A DNA stretch of 64,000 nucleotides, taken from the NCBI RefSeq assembly GCF_021646685.1, contig NZ_JAKJHW010000001.1, positions 558,001-622,000 of the forward strand, read 5' to 3'. This document shows, piece after piece, positions 1,330-55,518 of the stretch. The notes under the pieces were generated by a model. That model had not been told where the DNA came from and searched no databases. It saw only the letters and a program-made list of their open reading frames with translations. Within the stretch, counting starts at the first letter, position 1, and every line of letters starts with the position of its first letter. The DNA comes from Pseudalkalibacillus salsuginis (GTDB taxonomy: Bacteria > Bacillota > Bacilli > Bacillales > Fictibacillaceae). A program made the position numbers and the translations under genes.

Positions 1330-1444
1330 AAAAGCGGAATCGCCCTGTTTAGCCACGAAGGTCACTGGAAGTCCGACGAGGAGGCTGTCGCCGCAGCAGG
1401 AGGACTGAAGTGATCCGAGTGGTTGGGCGGTGAAGCTGGACATC
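1330..1444 (+). repeat. Structured intergenic repeat, copy R1 (short form)
   Basis: First of eight copies of an intergenic family, short form. The layout is a basal arm CGCCC (1341-1345) pairing with GGGCG (1425-1429), CCAC pairing with GTGG, GGTCACT with AGTGATCC, AGTCC (1370-1374) with GGACT (1402-1406), and an apical CGAC/GTCG hairpin closing a GAGGAGGCT loop. It is followed directly by copy R2, making the only tandem pair. It lies in the convergent gap between the 854-1318 gene and the amino-acid transporter operon. Confidence 0.85.
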
Positions 1445-1563
1445 AAAAGCGGAATCGCCCCTGGTTAGCCACGAAGGTCACTGGAAGTCTGACGAGGAGG
1501 CTGTCACCGGCGAAGGAGGACTGAAGTGATCCGAGTGGTTGGGCGGTGAAGCTGGACATCACT
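1445..1563 (+). repeat. Structured intergenic repeat, copy R2 (short form)
   Basis: Second member of the tandem pair, about 90 percent identical to R1 by eye. Its apical stem is TGAC (1490-1493) with GTCA (1503-1506), where R1 has CGAC with GTCG, a compensatory change. Basal arms are 1456-1460 with 1541-1545 and 1469-1472 with 1535-1538. A weaker extension shared with R3 and R8 (to about 1592) runs right up to the terminator of the transporter operon. Confidence 0.85.
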
Positions 1564-1592
1564 TCACCGAAATTTTTGCTTTCTTATCTTTG

Positions 1593-1626
1593 AAAAAAGG
1601 TGTGACCAGTGATGGTCACACCTTTT
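1593..1626 (-). terminator. Terminator of the amino-acid ABC transporter operon
   Basis: Inverted repeat with arms AAGGTGTGACCA and TGGTCACACCTT around a 4-base loop, followed on the minus strand by a T-run. It lies just past the ATPase stop codon. Confidence 0.9.
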
Positions 1627-1629
1627 ACT

Positions 1630-2376
1630 TTAGAGTATGGAACTTAAGAAATCCTTCGTACGTTGTTCTTTCGGGTTGTTGAAAAGTTCTTGCGGCTCGC
1701 CCCGTTCAACAATTCGTCCATCATGCATATAAAAGACCCAATCACCTACTTCACGGGCAAAGCCCATTTCATGGGTAACGACGACCATCGTCATCCCTTC
1801 TCTCGCCAGCTGTTTCATTGTCGATAAGACTTCCCCGACAAGCTCAGGATCTAATGCTGATGTAGGCTCGTCAAAAAGCATGATGTCCGGTTTCATCGCC
1901 AATGCCCTTGCAATAGCTACACGCTGTTTCTGTCCACCAGAAAGTTTAGATGGATAGACATCCGCTTTTTCAGCGAGCCCGACTTTTTCCAGTAATTCTT
2001 TCCCTTCTTTCTCAGCCTGGGATCTGTTCTTCCTTTTTACGACAAGTGGTGCTTCCATGACGTTTTGAAGTACCGTCTTATGAGGAAACAGGTTGAAGTG
2101 CTGGAATACCATTCCGATCTGTTCACGAACTTTATTCAAATTGTCTTTTTTAGGATCAATTTCTTTTCCTTCAACGATAATTTTTCCACCGTTTTTAATT
2201 TCCAAGAAATTCAGGCATCTGAGCAGGGTACTTTTCCCAGACCCACTTGCCCCGATCAAAACGACAACGTCATTTTCTTTGACTTCCATATCAATATCCT
2301 TCAGAACATGTAGATCACCAAAGCTCTTGTTCAGCTTTTCTATTTTGATCATTTCACGTTTTTCACTCAATATCAT
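1630..2376 (-). CDS. Polar amino-acid ABC transporter, ATP-binding subunit
   Basis: 248-residue ATPase of a polar amino-acid importer (GlnQ/ArtR/HisP family); it powers uptake through the permease encoded upstream. Walker [10 protein letters not shown] is at residues 42-50, then a Q-loop, the LSGGQKQR signature near 146, and Walker [13 protein letters not shown]. The ATG at 2376 sits 8 bases after the permease stop with AAGGGAGTGA before it; an internal ATG at 2352 ([11 protein letters not shown]) matches the usual family start and is an alternative. It is the last gene of a binding protein-permease-ATPase operon, the same order as B. subtilis artPQR, but substrate (Arg, Gln, Cys or other) cannot be assigned. 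Confidence 0.93.
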
Positions 2377-2384
2377 TCACTCCC

Positions 2385-3044
2385 TTAATCACTCGCAGAT
2401 AGCTTTTTCTCCATCAAGCTGACAATGGTTGTTAATAGGAAGACAAGAATCAGATAGTAAACAGCTACAATCAATAAATAGGTCATAGAATCAAAGTTAT
2501 TCGATCCAGCTGTTGTAGCAACATTGAATAATTCATACATACCGATGAAGGCTGCTAATGAGGAGTCTTTCAATCCTATGATGAACTGATTACCGAGTGG
2601 AGGCAATGCTCTACGGAAAGCTTGCGGAAGAATGATTCTTCGCATAGTCAAAGCATTCGTCATACCTAATGAACGCCCAGCTTCCATTTGGCCTTTATCG
2701 ATCGATTGGATCGTGCCTCGAAAGATTTCTGCTATATAGGCACCGTTGTGAAAGGCAAGTGCCAATGTTGCAGACCAGAACCCTGAAATATTATATTCTG
2801 ATAACCCGAAATAAAAAATGAAGATTTGGACGATCAGTGGTGTCCCTCGGACGATATAAATATAAACATTCGCTATTGCTTCCAATACTTTGATTTTAGA
2901 AATCTTCAAAAATGCAAAGAAAAGACCTATAAATATTGCAATCAAGATAGAAACTGCCGTAACTTGAAGGGTTAAAAGCATCCCCTTGAAAAAGACTGGA
3001 TAACTATCGATGAACGTTTCAAAAAAATGCGAAAAACTTGGCAA
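2385..3044 (-). CDS. Polar amino-acid ABC transporter, permease
   Basis: 219-residue inner-membrane permease of the HisM/GlnP type, normally working as a homodimer when a single permease gene is present. About five helices are visible, and the EAA loop is present (EAGRSLGMTNALTMRRIILP region, residues near 140-160), which docks with the ATPase. The start is a TTG at 3044: AAGGAGATGATA lies upstream at good spacing and there is no in-frame ATG. It lies between the binding-protein gene and the ATPase gene; a strong hairpin at 3139-3162 separates it from the binding protein. Confidence 0.93.
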   Translation of the reverse strand: MPSFSHFFETFIDSYPVFFKGMLLTLQVTAVSILIAIFIGLFFAFLKISKIKVLEAIANVYIYIVRGTPLIVQIFIFYFGLSEYNISGFWSATLALAFHNGAYIAEIFRGTIQSIDKGQMEAGRSLGMTNALTMRRIILPQAFRRALPPLGNQFIIGLKDSSLAAFIGMYELFNVATTAGSNNFDSMTYLLIVAVYYLILVFLLTTIVSLMEKKLSASD

Positions 3045-3138
3045 GGTGTATCATCTCCTTAAAGCACCGATATCAAGCTGGTATGATTGTATGGTTCATG
3101 CCTTTGGAAAAGTTATGCAATACATATGATAAGAAACA

Positions 3139-3165
3139 AATGTGCGCAAAGCTGCGCACATTCGT
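3139..3165 (-). terminator. Intercistronic stem-loop after the binding-protein gene
   Basis: Ten-base-pair arms (AATGTGCGCA and TGCGCACATT) around a 4-base loop, followed on the minus strand by TTGTTTCTT. It lies between the binding-protein and permease genes. Its position suggests partial termination or 3' end protection, giving more binding protein than membrane subunits, a common design in such operons (inference). Confidence 0.75.
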
Positions 3166-3185
3166 CATTCTTTCCTAGTCAAAAT

Positions 3186-3983
3186 TTATTTACCTTCAGG
3201 ATCAGATGTAATGTCATCCCCGAAGTACTTTTCACTTAGCTTTTTCAATGTACCATCTTCTCTAAGTTTCTCTAAAGCTGCATTGATATCTTTAAGTAGT
3301 TTATCGTTGTCTTTGGCAACAGCGATTGCTTGCTCACTTCGTCCTAAAAGTTCTTTTCCTTCGATATTGAAGCCATTCCCGATCGCTTCTTTACCAGTAA
3401 TAAAATCAGTGATGACCGCGTCGTGCTTCCCTTCACTCAAAGCTTCAAGTGCTGTCACGTCACTGTCATAAATTTTGATGTTATCGGTCATTTCTTCCGC
3501 TGATTTTGCATATGTCGACCCTTTTGAGACAGCGATTTCCTTATCTTTCAAGTCATCTTTTGTTTCAATATCACTATCTGATCTTGTGAAAATCTGTGGA
3601 CCAGAATAGTAGTATGGAATGGAAAAATCCACATGCTCTGCTCGTTCCTCGTTAATGGTATGACTTGCAACCGCAGCATCAAATCGTCCAGTCTTTACCC
3701 CTTCAACGATACTTGCAAACTTGAACTTTTGTGGATTAGGCTCCAATCCTAATTCTTTGGCTATTGCCTCTGCTACTTCGATATCAAATCCAGTCATTTC
3801 ACCATTTGCATCCGTTGAACTGAATGGTTTGAACTCACCCGAAGATGCGTAAGTGAACTTTCCATCTTCCTTGAGATCGTATTCCCCATTTGCTCCGTCC
3901 CCATCTTCTGAACCGCCTCCACAGGCTGCCAGAAGCATTGAAAACAATAAGATCATGACTGCCCATAAGCTAACTTTTCTCAT
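3186..3983 (-). CDS. Polar amino-acid ABC transporter, substrate-binding lipoprotein
   Basis: 265-residue extracellular solute-binding protein (SBP_bac_3 fold). A lipoprotein signal ends in LLAAC with the acylated Cys at residue 21, followed by an acidic Gly/Ser linker. The mature part has typical family motifs: FKPFSSTDANGEMTGFDIEV near residue 52 and a VSKGSTYA-like hinge segment. It captures a polar amino acid outside the membrane for the downstream permease and ATPase. It is the first gene of the operon; ATG at 3983 has an AGAGGGT ribosome site. The ligand is not deducible by eye. In B. subtilis such a set is not found between ysxC and hemA, so the operon looks inserted here. Confidence 0.92.
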   Translation of the reverse strand: MRKVSLWAVMILLFSMLLAACGGGSEDGDGANGEYDLKEDGKFTYASSGEFKPFSSTDANGEMTGFDIEVAEAIAKELGLEPNPQKFKFASIVEGVKTGRFDAAVASHTINEERAEHVDFSIPYYYSGPQIFTRSDSDIETKDDLKDKEIAVSKGSTYAKSAEEMTDNIKIYDSDVTALEALSEGKHDAVITDFITGKEAIGNGFNIEGKELLGRSEQAIAVAKDNDKLLKDINAALEKLREDGTLKKLSEKYFGDDITSDPEGK

Positions 3984-4235
3984 TCTGTTTTGACCCTCTT
4001 TCTGTAGAATTTTGGATACTACTTACGAGAGAAACATACAGTGGTAAACAGTCACAAAAAACGATCCTATTATTTTTCAAAGAGTATGTAGACGAGGCAT
4101 TTATTCTTTCAGCCTACTTCACACACTCTACATTTCTCTCCACCACTGTACATTTCCCTTAACTGCGACGAACTAAACAGCACCAAAGCCCTGCTTTCTA
4201 TTAAAGTATCCACTGTATACCTTCTACATAAAAAC

Positions 4236-4276
4236 AAAAAAACCTCCTTGTTTTTTAAAACAGGGAGGTTTTTGTC
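4236..4276 (-). terminator. Terminator of the lonA-ysxC operon
   Basis: Arms AAAAACCTCC and GGAGGTTTTT around an A/T-rich loop, with a T-run on the minus strand, immediately downstream of the ysxC stop. Confidence 0.88.
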
Positions 4277-4279
4277 ACT

Positions 4280-4861
4280 TTATAAAAGGCTTTCGATTGT
4301 TGACCAGACTTTTTCTTTACCGAATGATGTTTCTGCAGAAAAAAGGTGTACTGACTCCCCTTTTTCCATCTGAAGGGTTTCACGGATCTGTTTGATATGC
4401 TGCTGGTGCTTGCCTTTTGGAATCTTATCCGCTTTTGTCGCAACGACAATTACGGGGATTTCAAAGTGCTTCAACCAATCAAACATCAATTGATCGTCCT
4501 TGGTTGGCGCATGGCGTAGATCGACTAGCAAAACAACAGCCTTCAATTTCTTGCTTTCCTTCAAATAGGTCTCTATCATCCGCCCCCAGGCATCACGTTC
4601 TTTTTTCGAGACTTTTGCAAATCCATACCCTGGAACATCGACAAAGTACATTACTTCATTCAAAAGGTAAAAATTCAAAGTTTGTGTCTTACCTGGTTTG
4701 GAAGATGTCCTGGCAAGAGCTTTACGATTGATCATTTTATTTATGAAAGAGGATTTACCTACATTCGAACGGCCAGCGAGTGCGATTTCCGGCTTCATGT
4801 CATTCGGGTATTGTTCCTTTTTTACGGCGCTGATAATCAGTTCAGCTGTATTTACTTTCAT
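4280..4861 (-). CDS. ysxC: Ribosome biogenesis GTPase YsxC/EngB
   Basis: 193-residue circularly ordinary TRAFAC GTPase needed for late 50S subunit assembly. G1 is GRSNVGKSS (residues 30-38), G3 is DVPGYG, and the G4 motif reads TKADK. Length equals the usual family size. The ATG overlaps the lonA stop by 4 bases (ATGA), so translation is probably coupled. The lonA-ysxC pair is conserved in Bacillus; here the operon ends at ysxC with its own terminator rather than running into hemA. Confidence 0.97.
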
Positions 4862-7182
4862 TCTTGTCCACCTATCAATGCTTCTTTTAATACTTCATCT
4901 AAATGAGAAACTGGAATGAAGATAAGATCCTTCTTTACACTATCCGGAATATCATCCAAGTCTTTTTCATTTTCTTTAGGGAAAATGATTCTTTCAAGTC
5001 CTGCTCGATGGGCACTCAGTGTCTTTTCTTTCAATCCGCCAATCGGCAACACACGTCCCCGAAGGGTAATTTCCCCGGTCATGCCGACTTCTTTGCGCAC
5101 AGGACGGTTTGTCATTGCTGAAATGAGCGCTGTTGCCATCGTAATCCCTGCAGAGGGGCCATCCTTTGGTGTTGCACCTTCCGGGACATGGATATGAATA
5201 TCATTTTTTTCGGAAAACTCTGTATCGATATTCAATTCTTCAGCACGTGAACGGATATAACTGAATGCTGCTTGCGCCGATTCTTTCATGACATCGCCAA
5301 GTTTTCCAGTCAAGATCAACTTGCCTTTACCTGGTGAAACTGAGACTTCGATCGAAAGTGTATCACCGCCAGCTGTCGTATAAGCGAGACCTGTGGCAGT
5401 TCCGATTTGATCTTCCACTTCAGCTTGTCCATACCTGAATTTAGGTTTGCCGAGATAATCTCCCAGCGTTTTTTCTGTAATAATGACACGCTTTTTGTCG
5501 CCACCCACGATTTCTTTTGCCGCTTTTCGGCATAAGGATGCGATTTGACGTTCCAGGTTACGGACCCCCGCTTCACGCGTGTAGCGACGGATGACTTGCA
5601 TCAACGCTTCATCACGGATCTGAAGCTTGCCTTTGGTAAGACCATGTGCCTCTGTTTGTTTTTTTACAAGATATTGATTCGCTATATGAAGCTTTTCCAC
5701 TTCAGTATATCCAGCGATCTGTATCAATTCCATACGATCCAGCAGCGGACCAGGTATGGTTGAAATGTTGTTTGCAGTCGTTACAAATAAAACCTTTGAT
5801 AGATCATAAGGCTCTTCGATGAAGTGATCGCTGAACGTATTATTCTGCTCAGGATCTAGCACCTCTAGTAAAGCTGATGCAGGGTCCCCGCGGAAATCAT
5901 TAGACATTTTATCAATTTCATCAAGTAAGAACACAGGATTCACAGAGCCTGCTTTTTTCATCCCTTGGATAAGCCGTCCAGGCATCGCACCTACATATGT
6001 GCGGCGATGACCGCGAATTTCCGCTTCATCACGTACACCCCCCAGTGAAATTCTTACAAAATTCCGTCCAAGTGTACGCGCGATCGACCTTGCAAGGGAG
6101 GTTTTTCCAACCCCAGGAGGTCCGACCAAGCATAAAATCGGTCCTTTCAAAGAATTTGTAAGCTGTTGGACTGCAAGGTATTCAAGGACCCTTTCCTTCA
6201 CTTTCTCAAGGCCATAATGGTCCTCATTCAAGATTTTTTCGGCATGATTGATATCAAGGTTGTCTTCTGTCTCTTTCACCCAAGGTATGTTAAGCAGCCA
6301 ATCGATGTAATTTCGGATTACACCGCTTTCAGCAGAGTTTTGCGGCATCTTTTCATATCTGTCCAATTCTTTAAGCGCGGTATTCTGGACATTTTCAGGC
6401 ATTTGAGACTCTTCAATTTTTTCCCTTAATGATGTGACTTCCCCTGCTTTACCTTCCTTGTCACCAAGTTCCTTTTGGATCGCCTTCATTTGTTCACGAA
6501 GGTAATATTCTTTCTGAGTCCGTTCCATCGACTTTTTGACACGCTGGCCGATTTTCTTCTCAAGACCGAGTACTTCCTTTTCGTTATTCAATATCTTAAT
6601 GATTTTATTAAGCCGTTCTTTGGTTTCAAGTGTTTCTAAAATTTCTTGTTTTTGTTTTATTTTTAACGGTAAATGTGAAGAAACGATATCAGCTAGTCTG
6701 CCGGGCTCTTCAATGTCTTGAACAGAAGCGAGGGTCTCGGCTGTCACTTTCTTTGATAGGTTTATGTATTGTTCAAAATAGTGCAGCAATGTACGCATCA
6801 ATGCCATTTCTTCAGCATCTGCCTCTACGCGTTCTTCGATCAATTTTACATTCACTTCGATATATCCGATTTCATCATCGTCTTTATAAGAAGTGACTTC
6901 TCCGCGTTGTACACCTTCAACTAGTACCCTGATCGTTCCATTCGGGAGCTTCAGCATCTGATTGACTTTAACAATCGTCCCTAATTTATAAATTTCATCT
7001 TCCGTTGGATCTTCTATGGCCACTTCTTTTTGAGTGGATAAAAATATGTGCTGGTCATCCATCATTACTTGTTCAAGGGCTTGAACAGACTTCTTGCGTC
7101 CCACATCCAAGTGTAGTACCATTCCTGGATAAACAAGCAGTCCTCTTAGTGGCAACAATGGTATTGTTCTCGTTTGAGCCAT
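4858..7182 (-). CDS. lonA: ATP-dependent protease LonA
   Basis: 774-residue cytosolic AAA+ serine protease, the same length as B. subtilis LonA. It contains an N-terminal LON substrate-binding domain (to about 200), a coiled coil, the AAA module with Walker [12 protein letters not shown] near 355, and a C-terminal protease domain with the Ser of [14 protein letters not shown] and the downstream catalytic Lys. It degrades misfolded and regulatory proteins. Start ATG 7182 ([12 protein letters not shown]) is chosen over an upstream in-frame ATG at 7233 because GGAGGTG lies 8 bases before it. No CtsR operator was recognised in the 284-base upstream gap. Confidence 0.97.
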
Positions 7183-7448
7183 AGAAACACACCTCCAAAT
7201 TCTATTTGACAAACTGATTTGAAAAAACTTCACCCATACTAGTAGTCACGAAATATTCTTCAATGATACAGGGATCGGAGTGGATGAACATCAGCTTGAT
7301 TATCATGAGTTGAAATAGGTATTTCATCTTATCAATTCTACCCGTAAATCACATCTTTGTCTAATAAGTACTATTCCATTCAGCCTTTATTTTAGATGAT
7401 TTCTAGAATTATTCAATGTCCAGGAAATACGTTTTCACTAATCAAATT

Positions 7449-7486
7449 AAAAAAGAAAGCCCCGCCTCAAACGACCTTTGGCGAGG
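7449..7486 (-). terminator. Terminator of lonB, overlapping the coding end
   Basis: Arms CCTCGCC and GGCGGGG (one G-T pair) followed on the minus strand by CTTTCTTTTTT. The 5' arm lies inside the last lonB codons, so the stop codon at 7467-7469 is within the hairpin loop. Confidence 0.8.
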
Positions 7487-9134
7487 ACTCTTGCGCAGTG
7501 ATGCTATCGACTCTTTCTTTATTATACTTTTCCTTGAAGACGTGTTCGAAAACCTCATCTAGGTGATCGACATAAACAATTTCGATTCCTTTGATTTCCT
7601 TTAAAATCGATTGTTGGTTCTCTTTAGGGACAAAGACGGTCTGAACGCCTGCCTGACTTGCGGCTGAAACCTTTGCAAATACGCCTCCGACTGGTTTGAC
7701 ACTTCCATGTATACTGATTTCACCTGTCATGGCAATTTGGTTGTCGACCTTGATCCCTTTTATCGCTGAATAGATGGCTGTTGCAATCGCTATTCCTGCG
7801 GAAGGTCCATCAACTGGAGCGCCACCAGGGAAATTGATATGGATATCATAATTGTTGGACGGGACACCCATTCTTCTAAGAACTGTCAATACATTTTCGA
7901 CTGAGCTCTTTGCGAGGCTCTTCCTTCTTATCGATTTTGATTGACTTCCGATACTCTCCTCTTCAACAATCCCTGTGATCATGATCGAGCCTTTTTCTTT
8001 TGTAGGAATCACCGTCGCTTCAATCTCGAGTAATGCACCTGTATTCGGTCCATAAACAGCTAGCCCATTGATATAACCCTCTCGCGGGACCGGATGGATC
8101 TTTGACTCCATCCTAGGGGACAGCTGGCTTGAGTGAAGAACCCATTCGATATCATTTTTGGTTAAATGGTTTCGATCTTCCGTGATTGCTAACCCTGCTG
8201 CAATTTGTACACTATTGACAGCTTCTCGTCCATTCCGCGCATATTGGGATAGGAGGGTCAAAGCACTTTCCTCAATTGTAAAGCTGATTTTTTCCACCGC
8301 TCTTTTTGCAATTCGGATGATATCTTCAGCAGTCAGTTCTTTAAAGAATATTTCAAGACACCGTGATCGAATGGCTGGTGGGATCTCTTCTGGTGTACGA
8401 GTAGTCGCACCAATTAAGCGGAAATCTGCAGGTAATCCATTTTGGAAAATATCATGGATATGCTGGGGGATTTGAGTGTTTTCTTGACTATAATAGGCAC
8501 TTTCCAGGAAGACTTTTCGATCTTCAAGAACCTTCAACAGCTTATTCATTTGGATCGGATGAAGCTCACCGATTTCATCAATGAACAGTACACCCCCATG
8601 CGCATTCGTAACCGCTCCTTGTTTAGGCTGTGGAATTCCTGCTTGGCCCATCGCCCCCGCACCTTGGTAGATCGGATCATGCACAGAACCAATAAGGGGA
8701 TCGGCAATACCTCTTTCATCAAAACGGGCTGTCGTGGCATCCAGTTCCACAAAAACAGCAGTCGGTTTAAATGGAGACCGTCTATTTTTCTTAGCTTCTT
8801 CCAGTACAATTCTCGCAGCAGCTGTCTTCCCTACTCCTGGTGGTCCATAAATGATAACGTGTTGCGGATTGGGACCACATAGAGCTGCCTGTAACGCACG
8901 TATTCCTTCAGCTTGACCAATAATTTCATCAAAACGAGAAGGACGGACTTTTTCTGATAACGGTTCGCTTAACGAAATATTTCTCAGCTTACGAAGCTGA
9001 TCCATTTCTTTTCGTGATTCCTTATCTATCGAGACTTTCTGTGTCCGTTGGTTTCGTAATAAATTCCAGAAGTAGAGACCGATGATGATTCCGAAGAACA
9101 GCTGGATGACCAGTGCTATTCCTGTCCAACTCAT
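7467..9134 (-). CDS. lonB: Membrane-anchored Lon-like protease LonB
   Basis: 555-residue Lon-type protease of spore formers. An N-terminal transmembrane helix (about residues 4-23, GIALVIQLFFGIIIGLYFW) anchors it, followed by an AAA domain with Walker [12 protein letters not shown] and a C-terminal protease domain with the Ser of PVDGPSAGIAIATA. In B. subtilis LonB is made in the forespore under sigma-F. Start ATG 9134 is chosen because AGGAGGGGAAAG precedes it; an upstream in-frame ATG at 9185 has no ribosome site. It sits between clpX and lonA as in B. subtilis and ends in its own terminator. Confidence 0.95.
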   Translation of the reverse strand: MSWTGIALVIQLFFGIIIGLYFWNLLRNQRTQKVSIDKESRKEMDQLRKLRNISLSEPLSEKVRPSRFDEIIGQAEGIRALQAALCGPNPQHVIIYGPPGVGKTAAARIVLEEAKKNRRSPFKPTAVFVELDATTARFDERGIADPLIGSVHDPIYQGAGAMGQAGIPQPKQGAVTNAHGGVLFIDEIGELHPIQMNKLLKVLEDRKVFLESAYYSQENTQIPQHIHDIFQNGLPADFRLIGATTRTPEEIPPAIRSRCLEIFFKELTAEDIIRIAKRAVEKISFTIEESALTLLSQYARNGREAVNSVQIAAGLAITEDRNHLTKNDIEWVLHSSQLSPRMESKIHPVPREGYINGLAVYGPNTGALLEIEATVIPTKEKGSIMITGIVEEESIGSQSKSIRRKSLAKSSVENVLTVLRRMGVPSNNYDIHINFPGGAPVDGPSAGIAIATAIYSAIKGIKVDNQIAMTGEISIHGSVKPVGGVFAKVSAASQAGVQTVFVPKENQQSILKEIKGIEIVYVDHLDEVFEHVFKEKYNKERVDSITAQESSPKVV

Positions 9135-9363
9135 GCTTTCCCCTCCTATATGTATGTTTTCGTATCCATTAGTATCTCCGAGCATGTGTTGGACTAAACG
9201 TTATTTTAAGAAATGAATCGAGGAATTTGAATCAGAGTATTAGTCGAGGTGCTATTCGATCAAATACAAGAAAAGGATTAACTTCAGATTAAAAATTAAG
9301 GTTCACCCTCCTTGAATGATCGTATTCAAATAATGTTAGGCCAAAAGTACTTTTAAATCATCA

Positions 9364-9485
9364 AAAAAAGCGCAAGCGCCCTGTTCAACCACGAAAGTCG
9401 CTGGAAGTCCGACGAGGAGGCTGTCGCCGCCACAGGAGGGCTGAAGTGATCCAAGTGGGTGGGCGATGGAGCTAGACATTACTTC
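9364..9485 (+). repeat. Structured intergenic repeat, copy R3 (short form)
   Basis: Short-form copy in the clpX-lonB gap. Basal arms CGCCC (9377-9381) with GGGCG (9461-9465) and CCAC (9389-9392) with GTGG (9455-9458) are intact. The inner arm reads GTCGCT against AGTGAT, still pairable through two G-T pairs. An extension to about 9521 shared with R2 and R8 runs into the T-tract of the clpX terminator. A 78-codon minus-strand open frame through it is a by-product of the repeat. Confidence 0.85.
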
Positions 9486-9521
9486 TTCATCGAAACAAAA
9501 CTTTTGTACTTCCTTATCATT

Positions 9522-9559
9522 AAAAAAACACCCCGCCGAATGCACGCGGAGTGTTTTTA
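9522..9559 (-). terminator. Terminator of clpX
   Basis: Arms AAAACACTCCGC and GCGGGGTGTTTT with a short loop and minus-strand T-run, placed 9 bases after the clpX stop. Confidence 0.9.
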
Positions 9560-9568
9560 CACAATTGA

Positions 9569-11152: not shown

Positions 11153-11186
11153 CAAAACAAGGCACGAAATTCCGCGCCTTGTTTTA
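11153..11186 (-). terminator. Terminator of tig
   Basis: Ten-base-pair hairpin (ACAAGGCGCG with CGTGCCTTGT) followed by a minus-strand T-run, 15 bases after the tig stop. Confidence 0.9.
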
Positions 11187-11200
11187 CATCTTACTGTATA

Positions 11201-12496: not shown

Positions 12497-12593
12497 GACT
12501 ATAATTCCCTCCAACATTTATCTTCTTAAACTACATTAACGTCCGAATGAGTTTACAACCACTACATTATAACACATGAACATCGGTTTTCAA

Positions 12594-17482: not shown

Positions 17483-17656
17483 TGAAAAGTGGCGACCCGC
17501 CTAGTTACGCAGGTCACTGGAAGACTGACGAGGAGGCTCGAACCAAACAAAGTTCGGTTCTGCGTGGACTCTCACATAAGATGTAAATCAATGTGTCGAC
17601 CGCCGCAGGAAGTCTGAAGTGATCCAAGTGACTGGTCGCTGAGCTGGATCACTTTC
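17483..17656 (+). repeat. Structured intergenic repeat, copy R4 (long form)
   Basis: Long-form copy between gerM and racE. Its stems differ from the short forms but remain paired: CGACC (17493-17497) with GGTCG (17634-17638), AGTTAC (17503-17508) with GTGACT (17628-17633), AGACT (17522-17526) with AGTCT (17611-17615). An inserted module after GAGGAGGCT contains a GAACC/GGTTC hairpin and an ATCAATGTGTCGA segment. A further tail (about 17665-17701) resembles the R5 tail. Confidence 0.85.
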
Positions 17657-17740
17657 ATAGGATCTCGCTTTTACCGCAGGAGTGTCGCGAATTTCACTAA
17701 AAACAATTTTCTCTATAAAAATATCCGATAAAAGGACTCA

Positions 17741-31551: not shown

Positions 31552-31647
31552 CTTTCAACCTCCTTAAGGAGTGGCATTGCTTTATTATATGGTCTTGTCA
31601 TACCCAACTGCTTATTGGAAGATTCACTTCCTTTCTACAGACATAAG

Positions 31648-31821
31648 AAAAGCGGAAGCGACCCGCCTAGTCACGTAGGTCACTGGAAATTGCCGAGGAG
31701 GCTTAAACCAAACAAAGTTCGGTTCGTTCGGGCTCCCACATAAGATGTAAATCAATGTGTCGAGCGCCACAGGAAGTCTGAAGTGATCCAAGTAACTGGT
31801 TTCTGAGCTGGACATCACTTC
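31648..31821 (+). repeat. Structured intergenic repeat, copy R5 (long form)
   Basis: Long-form copy between uvrC and trxA, most like R4. AGTCAC pairs with GTAACT, where R4 has AGTTAC with GTGACT. The inserted module includes AACCAAACAAAGTTCGGTT and the AATCAATGTGTCGA segment. The apical stem is degraded. A tail about 31862-31890 (AGGAATATCGCGAGTT) resembles the R4 tail. Minus-strand open frames across it are by-products. Confidence 0.83.
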
Positions 31822-31988
31822 TCCGCATCTAAACTGTGGGGTCTAGCCTGGCTAACTTCCCCATAGGAATATCGCGAGTTCTGCTTAAAGAAATTCAAGC
31901 AAAACCTTATATGTATTAATCCCGAATCTAACCATTGATTTGATTGTATCATTCTCGAACATTATATGGAAAAAGATAACCTTCAAAC

Positions 31989-45085: not shown

Positions 45086-45138
45086 ACTAAGAGCCTAGAA
45101 TCCGTTTTACAGATTCCACTCCCTTTCCTGAGGCTAAA

Positions 45139-45241
45139 GATAAGCGGAAACGACCTGATTAGTCACGTAGGTCACTGGAAAACAGCCGAGGAGGCTCGAA
45201 CCAAACAAAGACTTGGTTTTGCGTGGGCTTACACATAAAAT
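45139..45241 (+). repeat. Structured intergenic repeat, copy R6 (3'-truncated)
   Basis: Carries the 5' half of the long form (CGACC, AGTCACG, GGTCACTGG, GAGGAGGCTCGAACC and the start of the module) but loses similarity near 45241, so the right-hand arms are missing. It sits just downstream of rnhC in a convergent gap. Confidence 0.8.
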
Positions 45242-45267
45242 GTTTTTCAAGAGTGAATTTGTCCTAT

Positions 45268-45306: not shown

Positions 45307-45309
45307 CTA

Positions 45310-47742: not shown

Positions 47743-47786
47743 GATTTACACTCCCCATATAGATTTGTTCCATCATCATTTCGAAT

Positions 47787-48821: not shown

Positions 48822-49063
48822 AACTTGTTCCTCCTTTATCTTCGTAAACTTGACCTATAAAAGGTTCATAAATTTCCTGGATAAGCCTTTCATTTTAATC
48901 TTGTGTCATAACCTTCGAATACTTATGAGCAAGTATGCTTCTCTGTGCCCTATCCAAGTGTGGCGGTGCAATAGGACTCTGAGGAAAGGCAAGGGTGTCA
49001 GCCTCCCATGTAAAACCTTGCTGATACGAAAGAGCCATGATAGGGAGTAAAAATGCCATAAAA

Positions 49064-49320
49064 AAACCTTCATCCCAGAAAGGGACGAAGGTATCGCGTT
49101 ACCACCCTAATTAACAGCATTAAATCAAGAAGCTGTTCACTCCATTATGTAACGGTTTCCCGGCACAATCTTAGCTCATCGGAAATCCGATCAGTGTTCG
49201 AAAGGCAACTCCGGAATGAATTCCACCATCTCTACCATAAGCACGCTTCCAGTCTATGGCGTCCTCTCCCTGAATGGCGACCTATGATGTACTAGTTTCC
49301 ATCATCGTCATTTTCAACTA
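49064..49320 (-). promoter_or_regulatory. T-box leader of pheST
   Basis: The T-box core GGGTGGTAACGCG lies at 49095-49107, followed by the terminator ACCTTCGTCCC/GGGATGAAGGT with a T-run (49058-49092). The upstream part forms Stem I; a TTC triplet at 49218-49220 in GGTGGAATTCATTCC is the candidate phenylalanine specifier. Uncharged tRNA-Phe would stabilise the antiterminator and permit pheST transcription. Confidence 0.9.
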
Positions 49321-49338
49321 TTTTGTTAACTATACTGT

Positions 49339-49367
49339 ATTATAAGGAATCAATAACGTTCCTGCAA
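49339..49367 (-). promoter_or_regulatory. Probable promoter of pheST
   Basis: TATAAT (49339-49344) with a 17-base spacer to a weak TTGCAG (49362-49367) on the minus strand, just upstream of the T-box leader. Confidence 0.6.
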
Positions 49368-49378
49368 CTATTATCGTC

Positions 49379-50140
49379 TTATTTACCCTCTTTTAGACCA
49401 TATAACAGAATCCCCGCAGCCACAGCCACATTTAGTGATTCTGCCTGCCCATAAATCGGTACGAAAAGATTCTGATCCGAGGATGCCAGAAGGTCTTCAT
49501 GCACACCGTTCGCTTCATTCCCTAAAATCAGGGCATAACCGCTTATTCTGTCGGATAAAGTGTAAGGGATGCCGCCCTTGAGAGAGGTCCCGAATACCTG
49601 GATTCCTTTCTCTTTCATTCGCGGAATCCACTCTAGTAAATTTCCTTTTACAATAGGCAAGTGAAATAAAGATCCTTGTGTCGATCTCAGAACCTTACTG
49701 TTGTATAGATCCACCGTTCCGTTTCCGAGAATCACCCCGTCAGCACCTGCACTATCTGCAGTCCGGATAATCGCCCCTAAATTACCTGGGTCCTGAATCC
49801 CGTCAAGTAGAAGGTAGCTCCCATCAGAACTGAGTTCCATTTCCTTGGATCCCGCTTGGACAATCGCTACCACACCCTGTGGAGTCTCAGTATCTGCCAG
49901 TTCCTCGATCACAGAAGATGTTGCAACCCAGGTCGTCATATTCCCTGTATGCCAATCAGATGGGATACGGAATGATTTATCGATGATCAGATCAGTTACT
50001 TCAGCTTTATGCTTTAAAGCCTCCTCAATCAAATGAGGTCCTTCGATAATGAAAGCACCGGCTTTGTCCCGGCCCTTTTTTCTTTTTAATTTATTCCATT
50101 CCTTTACCCTGCTGTTTTTAGGTGATGTAATTCGATTCAT
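49379..50140 (-). CDS. ysgA: TrmH/SpoU-family RNA 2'-O-methyltransferase YsgA
   Basis: 253-residue SAM-dependent methyltransferase with the SPOUT trefoil-knot fold. Motif 1 (LLLDGIQDPGNLGAIIRTADSAG, residues about 112-134), motif 2 (YALILGNEANGV) and motif 3 (VPIYGQAESLNVAVAAGILLY) are all clear. The probable substrate is 23S rRNA; exact site unknown. ATG 50140 has AAGGA 9 bases upstream; the ATG three codons earlier abuts that site. Confidence 0.92.
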   Translation of the reverse strand: MNRITSPKNSRVKEWNKLKRKKGRDKAGAFIIEGPHLIEEALKHKAEVTDLIIDKSFRIPSDWHTGNMTTWVATSSVIEELADTETPQGVVAIVQAGSKEMELSSDGSYLLLDGIQDPGNLGAIIRTADSAGADGVILGNGTVDLYNSKVLRSTQGSLFHLPIVKGNLLEWIPRMKEKGIQVFGTSLKGGIPYTLSDRISGYALILGNEANGVHEDLLASSDQNLFVPIYGQAESLNVAVAAGILLYGLKEGK

Positions 50141-50275
50141 CTTTTTCATTCCTTACCAAAATAATAATGCTATTATACGTGATAATCATACATAATCCAA
50201 TACAACTGGATAAAAACTATCAACATACAAATGCTATGTACATCACTCCTAAACGAAAATATGAGGTGAAAAAGT

Positions 50276-50482
50276 ATGGATCTAAACCTAAGGAAAGCAG
50301 TTTTAGCGAATGTTTCTGGGAATAGCCACGAAGAGCTTGAAAGTACGATTGTTGAAGCGATCAACAGCGGAGAAGAAAAGATGCTCCCTGGACTCGGTGT
50401 ACTTTTTGAAGTCATCTGGCAGAACTGTGACGAATCAGAGAAAAACGAAATACTTGAAATTCTTGCAGAAGGTCTTCAATAA
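50276..50482 (+). CDS. sspI: Small acid-soluble spore protein I
   Basis: 68-residue minor SASP of the spore core, SspI family ([15 protein letters not shown], then [17 protein letters not shown]). Made in the forespore, normally under sigma-G. ATG at 50276 follows GAGGTGAAAA. Diverges from ysgA. Confidence 0.93.
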
Positions 50483-50499
50483 TTAGAATTAGAAAGTCA

Positions 50500-50539
50500 T
50501 GAAGAACAGGACTCCATAAAAAGGAGTCCTGTTCTTCAT
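50500..50539. terminator. Bidirectional terminator between sspI and ysdC
   Basis: Perfect 15-base arms GAAGAACAGGACTCC and GGAGTCCTGTTCTTC around a 7-base loop, serving convergent sspI and ysdC. Confidence 0.88.
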
Positions 50540-50540
50540 T

Positions 50541-51626
50541 TCAGGATTCTTTGATTTGGCGTACCATTTTCTCATCCAGGCCTTTGATAAGCTCTACCAT
50601 CAAACGTACAGCTTGTTCATAATCATCTCTATGGATGATCGATGCATTAGTATGCAAGTACCTCGTAGCAATCGTAATTGAAATGGTGGGTACTCCTTCA
50701 TGACTGATATGGATATTTCCTGCATCCGTACCTCCTCCAGGTGTTGTATCGATCTGGTAAGGTATTTTATTTTTTTCTGCTGTTTCAATGACAAAGTCCC
50801 GTAACCCTTTATGAGAAATCGTCCTTGCATCATAAATGATAATCTGTGGTCCTTCCCCAAGCTTGGATAGTGCATCTCGCTCTGTCACCCCAGGAGTGTC
50901 ACCCGGAATGCCTGTATCAATGGCGAATGCAATATCAGGCTGGATCATATGAGCTGCCGTCTTAGCACCACGTAAACCTACTTCTTCCTGGGCAGTCCCT
51001 ACACCATAAATGGTATTCTGATGCTTGATCTTTTTCAACTGCCTCAACGTATCAATTACGATTGCACATCCAATCCGGTTATCAAAAGCTTTGGCAAGCA
51101 GCATTTTCGGGTTGCTCATGACTGTAAATTCGAAGTAAGGTATGACGGAATCCCCTGGCCGCACTCCAATTTCCAAGGCATTTTCCTTATCCGAAGCACC
51201 AATATCAATATACATATCCTTGATCGGTACAGGCTTCTTCCTCGCTTCAGGTGAAAGGATATGTGGCGGCTTAGAACCAATTATTCCTACAACGTCTCCC
51301 TTTTTCGTTTTAACTGTGACACGCTGGGCGAGCAAAACTTGCTCCCACCAGCCCCCAACAGGTTGAAAACGCAAAAAGCCTTTATCATCGATTCTTGTAA
51401 CCATAAATCCAACTTCATCCAGATGTCCTGCCAGCATGATGCTCGGGCCATTTTTGGAACCTTTCTTCTTAGCAACCAAACTTCCGAGATTATCGTAAAA
51501 TACCTCATCAGCATAGGGTTTGATGTATTTTTTCATAACCTCCCGCGGTTCTGATTCGTCCCCTGAGATTCCGTTTGCATCTGTCAATTCCTTCAGCATG
51601 GTAAGTGTTTCATCTGAATTATTCAT
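50541..51626 (-). CDS. ysdC: M42-family metallopeptidase YsdC
   Basis: 361-residue cocatalytic metallo-aminopeptidase of the M42 (glutamyl aminopeptidase/TET) family. Metal and catalytic residues lie in [29 protein letters not shown] and [12 protein letters not shown]. Acts on peptides in the cytosol. ATG 51626 is preceded by AGGAGGG; the longer frame (to 51671) would overlap the upstream gene. Confidence 0.93.
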
Positions 51627-51657
51627 GAAGACCCTCCTGATGTCTAATCGTGATGTA

Positions 51658-52158
51658 TCAATACCCCTCATCTTGACGTGCGTGGTTCACCTGATTCTTT
51701 GATAAGTAAGCATCTTTTATCTCTTCAATAGTAAAACCTAAAACCCGTCCGATCATCAGATAGTCTTCCATTAATCGATTGTAATTATTGATGTCATCCT
51801 CATTGTTTTTAAATATGGACACACTCTCATAAACCTTCAAGAAAGCATGGACAGGATTTATGTCGGCAACTTTGGGTAGAGTTACTTGCTGTGGTACTTC
51901 ATAAGGAAGAATCAACCCAATTGAAAGCAAAAAATGGACTCCATCCACGTATTCTTCCAGGATGGTTTCTTTAGGTGAAGGCGGCTTGGAGCTCCAGAAT
52001 TTGAAGCATCGCGTTTCATTCGCGAGTTCACCAATTTCCACAAGTAATGCGAGTACTTTTTCATCTAATAAATCTTCTTTCTCCAAGCCTCTTTCAGATT
52101 CAATTCGTCGATCCAATTCATTTTGCATCTTATACATTTGTTGAAGTTCCAGGTCCAT
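51658..52158 (-). CDS. Dimeric all-alpha dUTP diphosphatase (dUTPase_2/MazG-like)
   Basis: 166-residue protein of the all-alpha NTP pyrophosphatase superfamily. Metal-binding motifs [19 protein letters not shown] (ExxE) and [15 protein letters not shown] (ExxD) match dimeric dUTPases. It would hydrolyse dUTP to dUMP, limiting uracil in DNA and supplying thymidylate synthesis. ATG 52158 has GAGGGGATA upstream. It lies 31 bases before ysdC, probably cotranscribed. I do not recall this gene at this place in B. subtilis. Confidence 0.85.
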
Positions 52159-52233
52159 AGAATATCCCCTCTCTTTATACTTTCTCCAGTATAACAAGGA
52201 ACATCATGAACCTTAAAGAATTCTTCTTAATAT

Positions 52234-52388
52234 GAAAAGTGTAAACACCCTGTTCAGCCACGAACGTCACTGGAAGTCCGACGGGGAGACTCAACCAAAC
52301 AAAGTTCGGTTCTGCGTGGGTAAACCCCTGGACGCTACAGGAAACTGAAGAGACCCGTGGTGAGGGGTTGCAGCTGGACATTCCTTCA
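52234..52388 (+). repeat. Structured intergenic repeat, copy R7 (rearranged)
   Basis: Diverged copy between the dUTPase and the TVP38 gene. Its first small hairpin is GTGTAAACAC where others have GCGCAAGCGC, again self-complementary. The module part AACCAAACAAAGTTCGGTT is kept but the AATCAATGTGTCGA part is gone, and the right arm is altered (CCGTGGTGAGGGGTTG). Its end is about 14 bases from the next terminator's T-tract. Confidence 0.78.
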
Positions 52389-52401
52389 TCTCTTACCTTT
52401 T

Positions 52402-52438
52402 AAAAAAGCCGGAACCTCTTTTTAAGAGTATACCGGCA
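52402..52438 (-). terminator. Terminator of the TVP38-family gene
   Basis: GCCGG/CCGGC outer stem (52408-52437) with an inner CTCTT/AAGAG pair, followed by TTTTTTAAAAG on the minus strand. Confidence 0.8.
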
Positions 52439-52446
52439 CTATACCC

Positions 52447-53019
52447 TCAGCGTGCTTCCGCAAAGAAATCCCGCCATTTGTAGACCCATTCTTTACGCCT
52501 TAGTGCATAAAACAACACTGCTAAGATACAGAGGATACTGATCATCCAATAGAGCGTCAATTGGTTCAACCAGCTTCCAAACGATGTATAGACAATAGCT
52601 AAAGGCACATTCGTAAATATGGAAAGCTTGGTGTAGTCCTTGAAATTTCTTGCAATCTCAATGATACAGAGAGAAATGAGATGAAAATGAAGAAAGGGGA
52701 CCAAGCGTAAGATGGTGATTTGTCCGATTGAGAGTTCTGAACGTTTTCCAAACCATTTTTCTTTCATGTACATGACTTTACTGAAAGATTTCGGCAACGA
52801 TTTTACGAGTGCATAAAAATAGACACTGACCAATGTTACACCAATGATGGAATAGATCGTTCCGAAAACCACACCAAAAACGACACCGCCAAGAATACAG
52901 ATGAATCCGACTGGAATAAATAAAAATTGCCGTAAAATGTGCAGGAAAATAAACAGGACTGGGGCCAATGCACCGCTTTTACCGAGCCAATGGATGAGTT
53001 GCATTGCATGCTGTTCCAT
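52447..53019 (-). CDS. TVP38/TMEM64-family (VTT domain) membrane protein
   Basis: 190-residue integral membrane protein with five to six helices and the VTT-domain signature (FIPVGFICILGGVVFGVVFG, then SIIGVTLVSVYFY). DedA/TVP38 proteins are linked to lipid scrambling or flipping of undecaprenyl phosphate in other members; this one's role is unknown. ATG 53019 (MEQHAMQ) follows a GGGGGGATGGAG stretch. It begins 22 bases after ysdA ends. Confidence 0.82.
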   Translation of the reverse strand: MEQHAMQLIHWLGKSGALAPVLFIFLHILRQFLFIPVGFICILGGVVFGVVFGTIYSIIGVTLVSVYFYALVKSLPKSFSKVMYMKEKWFGKRSELSIGQITILRLVPFLHFHLISLCIIEIARNFKDYTKLSIFTNVPLAIVYTSFGSWLNQLTLYWMISILCILAVLFYALRRKEWVYKWRDFFAEAR

Positions 53020-53041
53020 CTCCATCCCCCCCATAAACAAT

Positions 53042-53329
53042 TTATGAAAAGGGAAACGGACTTAGACCTTGCCTGTTGGCAGACAAGTATAGGTAAAGAC
53101 TGATCTGGAGGATGATCAAGACCGGGAGTCCTATTCGGAAGGAGAGGTGCTTCGTTTTATGACGGAAGAGATGCATACCTGCAAAAATTCCGATCGCGCC
53201 GCCCACTATGGAAACGATCCATAAATGACTTTCAGAGATCCTCCATTGCTGTCTCTTTGCTTTTTGTTTATCAATGAACATGATGATTAGACCATATAAA
53301 TTTATCAAAATCAATGTATAAATGATCAT
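53042..53329 (-). CDS. ysdA: YsdA, DUF1294 membrane protein
   Basis: 95-residue protein with three or four predicted helices, DUF1294 family; the motifs FIDKQKAKRQQWRISE and GGAIGIFAGMHLFRHKTKH are typical. Function unknown. Located downstream of rplT, as in B. subtilis. The ribosome site is weak (GGAAGCG). Confidence 0.85.
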   Translation of the reverse strand: MIIYTLILINLYGLIIMFIDKQKAKRQQWRISESHLWIVSIVGGAIGIFAGMHLFRHKTKHLSFRIGLPVLIILQISLYLYLSANRQGLSPFPFS

Positions 53330-53710
53330 CGTTTACGCTTCCTTTTTCTTCTCGTTGGATTTTTAGTTATCGGACTGGTGATTGCAGGCTGGTTTTGCAG
53401 ACCCGCTTTACGCATTTATGTATTTGCCCGTTTTGTACGAAAGGATATCAATTTTTGATATAAGGTGGCTAGTTCTTCATTCGGCCGTACAGTTCACATA
53501 ATGATGTAATTGAAGCCATAATTGATCTCCCTGTTCCTTTGTGTTTCGTTTATTTAGAAAAAATAAACATCTGGACTCACTTATTTCGCGTTTGACGGCT
53601 TAATGAGTATCCCAAAATTCATTTTTCGCATTTTCAGGGTCTCAGATCGCATTACTGAGTAACTTATCCCAACTTTTCCGCCTCGTAAAGTATTTAGAGA
53701 CCTGCATATA
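53330..53710. other. rplT-ysdA gap with two palindromic units
   Basis: No confident gene. A 29-codon minus-strand frame ends by overlapping the ysdA ATG but lacks a ribosome site. Between 53573 and 53702 there are two adjacent folded-looking units: GGACTC ... GAGTATCC (53573-53611) and GGTCTC ... GAGACC (53638-53702). Confidence 0.5.
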
Positions 53711-53745
53711 TAAAAAAGGCTGACTATTTATATAGTCAACCCCTT
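53711..53745 (-). terminator. Terminator of the infC-rpmI-rplT operon
   Basis: GGTTGACTA/TAGTCAGCC stem followed by TTTTTTATA on the minus strand, just past rplT. Confidence 0.88.
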
Positions 53746-53751
53746 TGTTAT

Positions 53752-54111
53752 TTATGCTTTAAGGCTATCTTTAGCTTTGTTTGCAAGTTCCGAGAAAGCT
53801 TTTTCATCGTTTATAGCAAGTTCAGCTAGCATCTTACGATTAACGTCGATTCCGGCTTGCTTCAAACCGTGCATCATACGGCTGTAAGAAATTCCGTTCA
53901 AACGAGCTGCCGCGTTGATACGTGTGATCCATAATTTACGGAAATCACGCTTCTTTTGACGACGGTCACGGTATGCATAGCGCAATGATTTGAATACTTG
54001 TTGTTGAGCAACTTTGAATAATTTATGTTTCGCACCAAAATAACCTTTAGCAAGTTTTAAGACGCGTTTACGACGACGACGTGTTACATAGCCACCTTTT
54101 ACTCTTGGCAT
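53752..54111 (-). CDS. rplT: 50S ribosomal protein L20
   Basis: 119-residue L20, required early in 50S assembly and the repressor of its own operon in B. subtilis. The basic N-terminal extension ([19 protein letters not shown]) and the globular domain ([19 protein letters not shown]) are typical. It follows rpmI by 80 bases. Confidence 0.98.
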
Positions 54112-54191
54112 TGTAATCCCTCCTAGATTTTTCAGTTATTATTTCTTGTTCAAAAAGCAGGCGTACAGTAGCTTTCTGAACATATGATGAT

Positions 54192-54380
54192 TTAGATCAT
54201 GTCTTTGATACGCTTGTAGTCTCCGCTGGACACAAGTGCAGATTTACGGAGCTTACGCTTTTGCTTTTGAGACTTGTTACGGAACATATGGCTGGTGAAT
54301 GCGTGTGAACGCTTCAATTTGCCACTTCCGGTTTTCTTGAATCGCTTAGCAGTCCCTTTATGAGTTTTCATTTTAGGCAT
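54192..54380 (-). CDS. rpmI: 50S ribosomal protein L35
   Basis: 62-residue L35 ([20 protein letters not shown]), ending RIKDMI. Members usually have about 64-66 residues; this one lacks the last few. ATG has AGGAGG upstream. Confidence 0.97.
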
Positions 54381-54448
54381 GGTAAAAGTTCCTCCTTTAA
54401 TTACTAGTTCAAAGAAATTTCGTTCAAGATCCCTACCGTTATCAAAAG

Positions 54449-54967
54449 TTACTTACTTTCAATCGGAGCTAAGATCAAGAACATACTGCGGCCTTCCATT
54501 TTAGGCTTGGATTCAATCGTTCCAAAATCCTCACATTCCTTGGCCATACGCATAAGCACGTCACGTCCTAATTCAGAGTGAGTGATCGCACGTCCTCGGA
54601 AACGGATGGACGCTTTGACTTTGTTCCCCTTTTCAAGGAACTTTCTCGCATTACGAAGTTTTGTGTTGAAATCGTGTTCTTCAATATTCGGGCTAAGACG
54701 AACTTCCTTCGTCGTAATAGTCTTTTGATTCTTACGCGCTTCTTTTTCTTTCTTCTGTTGCTCATAGCGATACTTACCATAGTCCATAATTCTGCAGACT
54801 GGCGGTTTCGCACCAGGTGCAACAAGAACAAGATCTAGATTTGCATTTGCTGCAATTTCAAGTGCTTCTTGACGAGATTTTACGCCAATTTGATCTCCAT
54901 TAGCGCCAATCAGGCGAACTTCGCGGGCGCGAATGCCGTCGTTGACCATCATGTCCTTACTAATAAT
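54449..54967 (-). CDS. infC: Translation initiation factor IF-3, AUU start
   Basis: 172-residue IF-3, which keeps 30S subunits free and checks start-codon pairing. N-domain [19 protein letters not shown] and C-domain around [12 protein letters not shown] are clear. The likely start is ATT at 54967: GGAGGTGG lies directly upstream and the residues ISKD before the first ATG (54952) match B. subtilis IF-3 (ISKDQIVNEG, from memory). The ATG at 54952 has no ribosome site. AUU starts are a known autoregulatory feature of infC. Confidence 0.93.
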
Positions 54968-55048
54968 GAGCCACCTCCATCGATTTTTACAACCTAATCT
55001 TTTCTTGTAAAGTAAAGCAAATCTATTTCAATTTAATACAAAACAAAT

Positions 55049-55190
55049 AGAAAAAGCGTCGGCGCATACCACACCCACACTGAAAGGTTCCAACTATTGT
55101 CGAAAACTGTATCATTTATACCTGTCAGCTGTACTTTTGTACGCCAATCAGGTGAGAAGCGGGTGCTTCTGCTTGTTTACAAGAATATAC
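55049..55190 (-). promoter_or_regulatory. Ribosomal protein L20 leader
   Basis: The infC leader has a GAAGC-ACCC-GCTTC hairpin (55157-55170), GATTGGCGTAC, and a distal TATGCGCC-GACGC segment followed by TTTTTCTATTTG (55049-55070), the arrangement of the Bacillus L20 leader in which L20 binding to an rRNA mimic favours termination before infC. Confidence 0.75.
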
Positions 55191-55341
55191 GATTATATTT
55201 ACATTAGAATCATATCATCGATGTCATATTGATGTCAAGCCCTCTGGCTTCGTTTCAACCTTTATAGCGTAAATGATTTCATGTGAAAAATCAAGGATTA
55301 TTTTGTGAAAGGCAATAACAAATCGTTTTTTGAATTACAAA

Positions 55342-55518
55342 AGAAAAGTGCAAGCGTCCTGGTTAGCCACGAAGGTCACTGGAAGTCAGACGAGGAGGCT
55401 CGAACCAAACAAAGTTCGGTTCTGCGTGGGTAAACACTTCGACTTAAATCAATGTGTCGACCGCCCAGGAGGACTGAAGTGATCCAGTGGTTGGGCGGTG
55501 AACCCTGGACATCACTTC
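55342..55518 (+). repeat. Structured intergenic repeat, copy R8 (long form)
   Basis: Best-preserved long form, between thrS and the L20 leader. CGTCC (55355-55359) pairs with GGGCG (55493-55497), CCAC with GTGG, GGTCACT with AGTGATCC. The inserted module has GAACC/GGTTC and AATCAATGTGTCGAC. A shared tail to about 55550 leads directly into the thrS terminator. Confidence 0.85.

Follow-up and report, generated by a model that had tools for sequence, protein, structure and literature searches.

The BOX elements of Streptococcus pneumoniae are short, intergenic, modular, clustered and structured when transcribed, and their inner module may be absent or repeated and varies between strains (PMC3049150). 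REP and REPIN sequences are palindromic or hairpin repeats, non-autonomous, for which dissemination by TnpA-REP has been proposed (PMC3116915, PMC8266576). The repeats bcr1-bcr18, with a length of 100-400 bp, are interspersed, non-coding, show mobile-element features and TTTAT motifs and are described as restricted to the B. cereus group (PMC6542083), and Bhal-1 of Bacillus halodurans is reported as a 74 bp intergenic stem-loop repeat with 36 copies (PMC2267715). Here, we analyzed a hairpin repeat from a stretch of 64,000 nucleotides of Pseudalkalibacillus salsuginis (contig NZ_JAKJHW010000001.1, positions 558,001 to 622,000), in the following called the window. A preliminary description had listed eight intergenic copies with ordered paired arms (R1-R8). 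All eight are present on the + strand, as checked by sequence and alignment, and a covariance model built from four genera (model R2) recovered seven of them at E ≤ 1e-6; missed was copy R6, which is truncated with its 3' half gone. The number eight applies to the window alone, as the genome holds at least 150 copies (150 of 150 scored candidates matched, out of 1253).

Compared by description, the element resembles BOX as a short structured intergenic sequence with a variable inner module that occurs in clusters. BOX, however, is defined by the boxA, boxB and boxC sequence modules of streptococci, whereas here the fold, not the sequence, is common to an order, and whole hairpins make up the arrays. 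With bcr1-bcr18 it has in common, again by description, that non-coding copies are dispersed through the genomes of a Bacillus group and show features of mobile elements; a TTTAT pair was not seen by eye at recent copies in genome G002. In contrast to REPIN-RAYT systems, the fold is much larger and, by distribution, no Y1 gene is needed. Bhal-1 is likewise an intergenic stem-loop repeat family of a Bacillus, differing in its length of 74 bp; going by its description, it could be a fragment of the present family. Group IIC introns are found adjacent to terminators, and integron attC sites are recognized as folded single strands with an orientation to replication. The element is like the former in terminator adjacency, and like the latter in the putative folded single strand and the orientation to replication. 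Models of group II intron domains V/VI and D1-D4 matched reverse transcriptase loci and no repeat copy scanned.

The Rfam search proposed in the preliminary description (4227 families) yielded no gathering-score match on the copies scanned and nothing on the hairpins at relaxed thresholds; at sub-threshold level, cHP (locus L065) and SurC (L162) gave weak matches next to the hairpin core. Searches of open-access main texts brought up no described family of this fold. Such sequences have presumably been seen before in Bacillaceae genomes, without a name. Apparently, this is an undescribed, order-wide family of short mobile elements, best filed as a small non-autonomous mobile element whose behavior comes closest to that of BOX and REPIN. 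Its unusual trait is a fold that is conserved over sequence across an order, together with a nearly uncompensated decay of resident copies.

Conservation of the fold across an order

The element occurs in two forms. The short form, with a core of ~111 nt, is a stack of five stems (P1-P5), interrupted by one bulge, which separates P2 from P3, and by internal loops above each of P3 and P4, whereas the long form of ~166 nt carries additional small helices (P6-P9) at the apex. A DNA similarity search of 60 genomes gave matches only in eight genomes of the genus. Covariance model R1 matched 33 of 34 genomes of the family, and model R2 at E ≤ 1e-4 matched 158 of 199 sampled genomes of the order, covering 77 of 97 genera. 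In a class-wide sample at E ≤ 1e-6, 43 of 299 genomes matched, 21 in the order and 22 outside, 20 of the latter belonging to one family. The earlier guess that similar sequences occur in other Bacillaceae is supported by these matches. Copy numbers in these samples are lower bounds, with 18 candidates scored per genome for the order and 12 for the class. One genome (G129) showed five copies of equal score with a 123-nt period. Three plasmid and two phage queries searched by blastn had no match to copies, and an exact-pattern scan of viral contigs returned a single match, at a contig edge.

Covariation was assessed against shuffle controls that leave the relatedness of rows in place. In alignment A3 (plain MAFFT, 35 short copies of the genus) 93.9% of the cells are paired in comparison to 89.8% after shuffling, and both-sided changes occur in 11 of 28 pairs versus 5.3±1.4 shuffled and 2-7 with the partners slid. 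Alignment A5 (plain MAFFT, 28 sequences from four genera) has 95.1% paired cells versus 71.5% shuffled and 26-40% with slid partners, and both-sided changes in 19 of 24 pairs versus 14.4. In the model-fitted alignment A6 (108 copies) the values are 95.4% versus 69.0% for paired cells, 22 of 24 versus 17.7 for pairs changed on both sides, and 685 versus 192.7 for double-change cells. The covariation test suggested for this repeat is therefore positive already within the genus, and all three alignments support the proposed selection on a fold, although covariation alone is no proof of a functional RNA. Bulges and internal loops hold their position across the order while the letters of the arms vary. 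The stretch of A residues preceding P1 hardly varies (in alignment A5, its first two positions are invariant and the third is at 90% or more).

Several details of the preliminary description needed adjustment. The paired changes it named are found in the copies, yet AGTCAC/GTAACT of R5 retains one C-A mismatch. The apical CGAC/GTCG hairpin is present, weakly supported by one double-change cell in 35 copies with 91 of 105 cells paired, and the first small hairpin has its 3' arm in common with the basal stem P2, so that the two are alternatives. The loop GAGGAGGCT is nearly constant within the genus, as had been stated for the window copies, but not in the wider family, whose apex is a different hairpin; in the window it occurs nine times versus 0.36 expected, seven of these inside copies. 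The RNAalifold consensus for the long form deviates at the apex from the structure used here. The folding of single copies is uneven (Table 1): R5, R7 and R8 do little or no better than shuffled sequence, and together with R6 this makes four copies that are decayed or close to the shuffled level.

A single transition turns a decaying G-C pair into either G-T or A-C, as read on the + strand. The former outnumbers the latter by 51:22 in A3 and 45:23 in A2 (both P1-P5), by 28:13 in A5 and by 48:14 in A6 (56 non-redundant rows). Judged from these counts, the folded strand of P1-P5 is likely the + strand, whether as RNA or as single-stranded DNA; the excess tells the strand only and does not distinguish DNA from RNA. 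Independent columns in A3 would give 66.1 G-T to 41.8 A-C, and part of the excess is therefore due to composition.

Drift and probable exchange at orthologous sites

Copies of the P. salsuginis genome were paired as orthologues with copies of a second species (G005) when both flanks match, the flanks being ~92-97% identical. For 18 orthologous pairs with 28 base pairs each, 390 base pairs are unchanged, 51 single-broken, three double-broken, 32 single-kept, two compensatory and 26 gapped. Misassigned orthology would raise these change counts, not conceal compensation. Among 400 random pairs of paralogues within the own genome, 132 base pairs are double-kept, 172 double-broken, 1097 single-broken and 563 single-kept. 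Compensation is a minority within one genome too, and the strong signal lies between genera. Furthermore, the inner part of the own copy has been lost in two of five orthologous pairs aligned. As orthologues lose pairing almost without compensation while lineages covary, resident copies drift, and selection on the fold would act at the multiplication step rather than at each locus. Selection on a fold for multiplication can thereby be separated from that for a cellular function, the test being orthologous decay.

Judged by length, the form of the element differs at nine of the 18 orthologous sites, seven being long in P. salsuginis and two in G005; the nine include one partial match, L268 (138 nt). 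Many short copies contain GGCTGTCGCCGCC, which would not arise by simple deletion of the long apex, and overwriting by another copy is therefore more likely than repeated deletion. At locus L277 (from 1501; C7:814479 onward in the own genome) the apex contains about four tandem 52-nt units (...GTTTTTCGCGTTGTAAGTGCTCCATAAAGGTCTTATGAGTACCTTAAGATC), none of which is present in the G005 orthologue.

Element ends, placement and copies in the window

In genome G002, near-identical cores belonging to two subtypes stand at 21 loci (including L134) whose flanks are unrelated. The left end is TAA|GAAAAGC for 19 of these 21, and ...CTTTCTTA, with variants, forms the right end; a target-site duplication was not seen by eye in these 21 copies. 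In G116, from another family, five of 17 copies inspected start with TAAG and three of those five end in ...ACTTTCTTA, while the other 12 open with ACA, mostly as GAACA, and carry another kind of tail, which contains a partly mutated TTATCCACA-like motif. We take this motif to resemble a DnaA box. The same hairpin module thus comes with more than one kind of end. Short inverted ends TAAGAAA...TTTCTTA (~7 nt) are found in many G002 copies and in three of the five G116 copies starting with TAAG. With a core of 111-166 nt, which leaves no room for a protein of more than 55 aa, and with its copy number, the element is reminiscent of miniature inverted-repeat transposable elements (MITEs).

Most copies lie downstream of a gene. 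With tandem copies counted singly and open reading frames (ORFs) called mechanically, the right-hand gene is on the - strand with its 3' end toward the element in 71 of 83 cases (P. salsuginis), 42 of 51 (G005) and 13 of 16 (G002). Same-direction neighbors are (-,-) versus (+,+) in ratios of 46:5, 27:3 and 9:1, respectively, and each of the eight window copies has a - strand ORF to its right when the longer one is chosen where ORFs overlap. A terminator-like hairpin plus T-tract was found no more than 70 nt from the right end in 10/16, 10/16, 6/19 (G002) and 2/2 copies, 28 of 53 overall, compared to 11/320, 10/320, 21/380 and 2/40 in shuffles (3-6%) and to 0/16, 0/15, 1/19 and 0/2 (1/52) in positions 300 nt further away.

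The copies are oriented almost uniformly with respect to replication. On the own contig containing the window (C7), 49 of the 50 copies listed are on the + strand and one on the - strand; GC skew, measured over the window part, is negative along its entire length. GC skew agrees with the strand of 17 of 20 copies in G001, where the three misfits score 30-38 bits, and of 15 of 18 strong matches in G145, a genome from another family. Two of the three G145 misfits map to 4.30-4.31 Mb, a region of weak skew (-0.041) with a change of sign by 4.55 Mb; the third, at 3.56 Mb, is not in this region. Going by strand alone, copies in G029 (g4) appear more mixed.

The copies of the window are listed in Table 1. 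R1 and R2 form a tandem pair with a single common tail, and an AT-rich tail ending in ...TATACTTTCTTA or a variant follows many copies. Pieces of a second repeat family (CACTCCCTTTCCGCGGGC... on the left, ...CGCAGGAGTGTCG on the right) adjoin copies R4-R6 (17651-17696; 31625-31647 and 31813-31860; 45118-45140) and also surround copies in L067, L073, L086 and L096; the two are nested repeat families. A third family (TTGGCTAGCGCCAAGCCTTAGCG.../GCCTTAGTTACGCTTATA...) abuts or lies near the tail of the element in the flanks of L030, L085, L169, L172 and L277. The window also contains two T-box leaders and one L20 leader on the - strand (57645-57864, 49078-49314 and 55044-55180).

Table 1 Copies of the element and their tails in the window. 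Scores refer to covariance model R2; folding z is given against 100 dinucleotide shuffles.
Feature	Position	Strand	Score (bits)	Folding z	Further basis
Copy R1, short form, first of tandem pair	1330..1440	+	101.5	-4.8	
Copy R2, short form, second of tandem pair	1445..1556	+	91.1	-3.4	
AT-rich 3' tail of R1-R2 array (catcacttcaccgaaatttttgctttcttatc...), then terminator-like hairpin	1557..1596, end approximate	+			Sequence; tail common to recent G002 copies
Copy R3, short form	9366..9476	+	87.5	-2.0	
AT-rich 3' tail of R3	9477..9519, end approximate	+			Flank sequence
Copy R4, long form, extra apical hairpins	17485..17648	+	61.6	-3.0	Alignment A2
Copy R5, long form, partly decayed, within pieces of another repeat family	31648..31812	+	54.4	-0.2	
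Copy R6, 5' half only	45141..45250, ends approximate	+	No match at E ≤ 1e-6	-1.3	Alignment A1
Copy R7, long form, decayed	52235..52378	+	41.4	+0.2	
Copy R8, long form	55344..55509	+	57.2	-1.0	
AT-rich 3' tail of R8	55510..55556, end approximate	+			L031 flank

Candidate mobilizers and competing explanations

The chances are slightly in favor of a non-autonomous mobile element, similar to REPINs, BOX or MITEs, that is recognized as a folded single strand, and the data suggest that the fold itself enables the multiplication of the element. A trans-acting recombinase or transposase might recognize the shape of this strand, its G-A internal loops and the AAAAGC...GCTRGACA feet. Only copies that still fold would multiply, such that pairing would be renewed at the multiplication step. 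The short inverted ends seen in two genera may mark one type of full-length element, and insertion may prefer the T-tract side of intrinsic terminators. More tentatively, and with the odds against it, the conserved unit could be the shape as such, defining an undescribed, order-wide mobile class whose machinery, acting on the folded strand, also overwrites resident copies in place (the apical module differs at half of the orthologous sites); the element would then evolve like a structured RNA and yet live as intergenic DNA.

Several observations weigh against a mobile folded strand. No autonomous partner was found in searches for Y1 and group II reverse transcriptase genes, other transposase and recombinase families not having been searched. 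The classic model of single-stranded DNA transposition (IS200/IS605) predicts the lagging-strand template as substrate, and the + strand is not this template. The long-form helices P6-P9 lack the + strand bias, with 23 G-T to 32 A-C in A2. Scoring for an adjacent terminator was confined to the 53 copies with a tail matching a pattern, and the share is lowest, at six of 19, in the recently multiplied copies of G002. The orthologue sample is not random, as own loci were chosen for matching loci of G005 and 31 links supported by one flank were not used. Finally, of 24 joined-flank queries from G005 against the own genome 20 have both flanks there, 108-562 nt apart and in no case contiguous, one has one flank, and for L090, L104 and L116 no match is listed, which does not imply absence because 40 of 53 candidates were scored. 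The differing sites inspected are replacements or internal changes. Among the sites compared, no clean pair of empty and occupied sites was found that would establish insertion chemistry and target duplication.

The preliminary description left the choice between a structured RNA and a folded mobile DNA. Of these, mobile DNA fits better, since 51 single and three double breaks stand against two compensatory changes in orthologues. A structured RNA kept at each locus for its function in the transcript, e.g., as a 3' UTR stabilizer, small RNA or regulator, would account for the strong covariation, the G-T excess on one strand and the position at gene 3' ends, as well as for the tandem G-A internal loop, a motif common in RNA. 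This explanation is nonetheless unlikely, given the decay and the internal deletions in orthologues; moreover, no shared upstream promoter for the + strand was seen at the recent G002 copies, because their 5' flanks are unrelated. Covariation could also come about by mutation alone, if template switching in a quasi-palindrome rewrote one arm from the other. Small loops between long arms favor such events and no function would be needed, but arm correction would remove the asymmetric bulges and internal loops that are kept over the order, and corrected pairs are almost absent in orthologues, which renders this mechanism very unlikely. Least credible, and highly improbable, are selected, orientation-specific terminators, in which the hairpin on the opposite strand followed by UUUU would end leading-strand transcripts. 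The nearly invariant A run before P1 and the right-hand neighbors on the - strand agree with such a role, but a terminator-like hairpin is already present at about half of the sites scored (28 of 53) and the G-T bias favors the + strand instead.

Copying of a small RNA by a reverse transcriptase in the manner of a short interspersed nuclear element (SINE), e.g., by that of group II introns, some of which insert beside terminators, would match the terminator adjacency, the one main orientation to replication and the bias of the folded strand. Group II reverse transcriptases (RVT_1) are present in five of eight congeners and belong to introns of several classes. The three congeners with high copy number have two, nine and four matches (some of them gene fragments) versus one, one, zero, zero and zero in the five with low copy number, a suggestive trend. 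However, the three congeners without an RVT_1 match carry 8-32 copies, which speaks against this enzyme as a required mobilizer; no internal promoter has been shown, and relative to the terminator the element has the reverse polarity of group IIC introns. We regard this route as quite unlikely. Near a group II intron fragment of G002, a Bacillaceae-1 RNA (RF01690) was observed (L211, 2694-2760). Mobilization by a REP-associated tyrosine transposase (RAYT; HUH/Y1), as for REPINs, draws on a RAYT-like HUH transposase gene (L189 1468-2055; L188, L191, L192) with neighbors of ~144 and 207 aa in several congeners, which looks vertically inherited; in the own genome one repeat copy lies ~0.4 kb from it. 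Y1 matches occur in all eight congeners, and Y1 genes in 159 of 199 genomes of the order. Yet G002, despite its many near-identical copies, has no intact RAYT-like gene but one intact IS200-type and one broken Y1 gene, and in G116 all 18 scored candidates match the repeat with no Y1 match. Copies are found in 13 of the 20 Y1-negative genomes listed and Y1 in 15 of the 20 copy-negative genomes listed, about half of each class. Of 15 Y1 loci, among which two overlap, only two have a repeat within 1.5 kb, and one of these two repeats adjoins an IS200-type gene. The Y1-negative genomes with copies rule against Y1/RAYT as a required mobilizer, and we rate this mode of spread as very doubtful, below template switching. 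The IS200 element adjoining a G002 copy looks like a separate insertion, as homology to G001 begins at the repeat edge.

A structured repeat present in 77 of 97 sampled genera of an order is very widespread, yet no Rfam model fits the copies scanned. The element offers a target in the search for its putative mobilizing enzyme.

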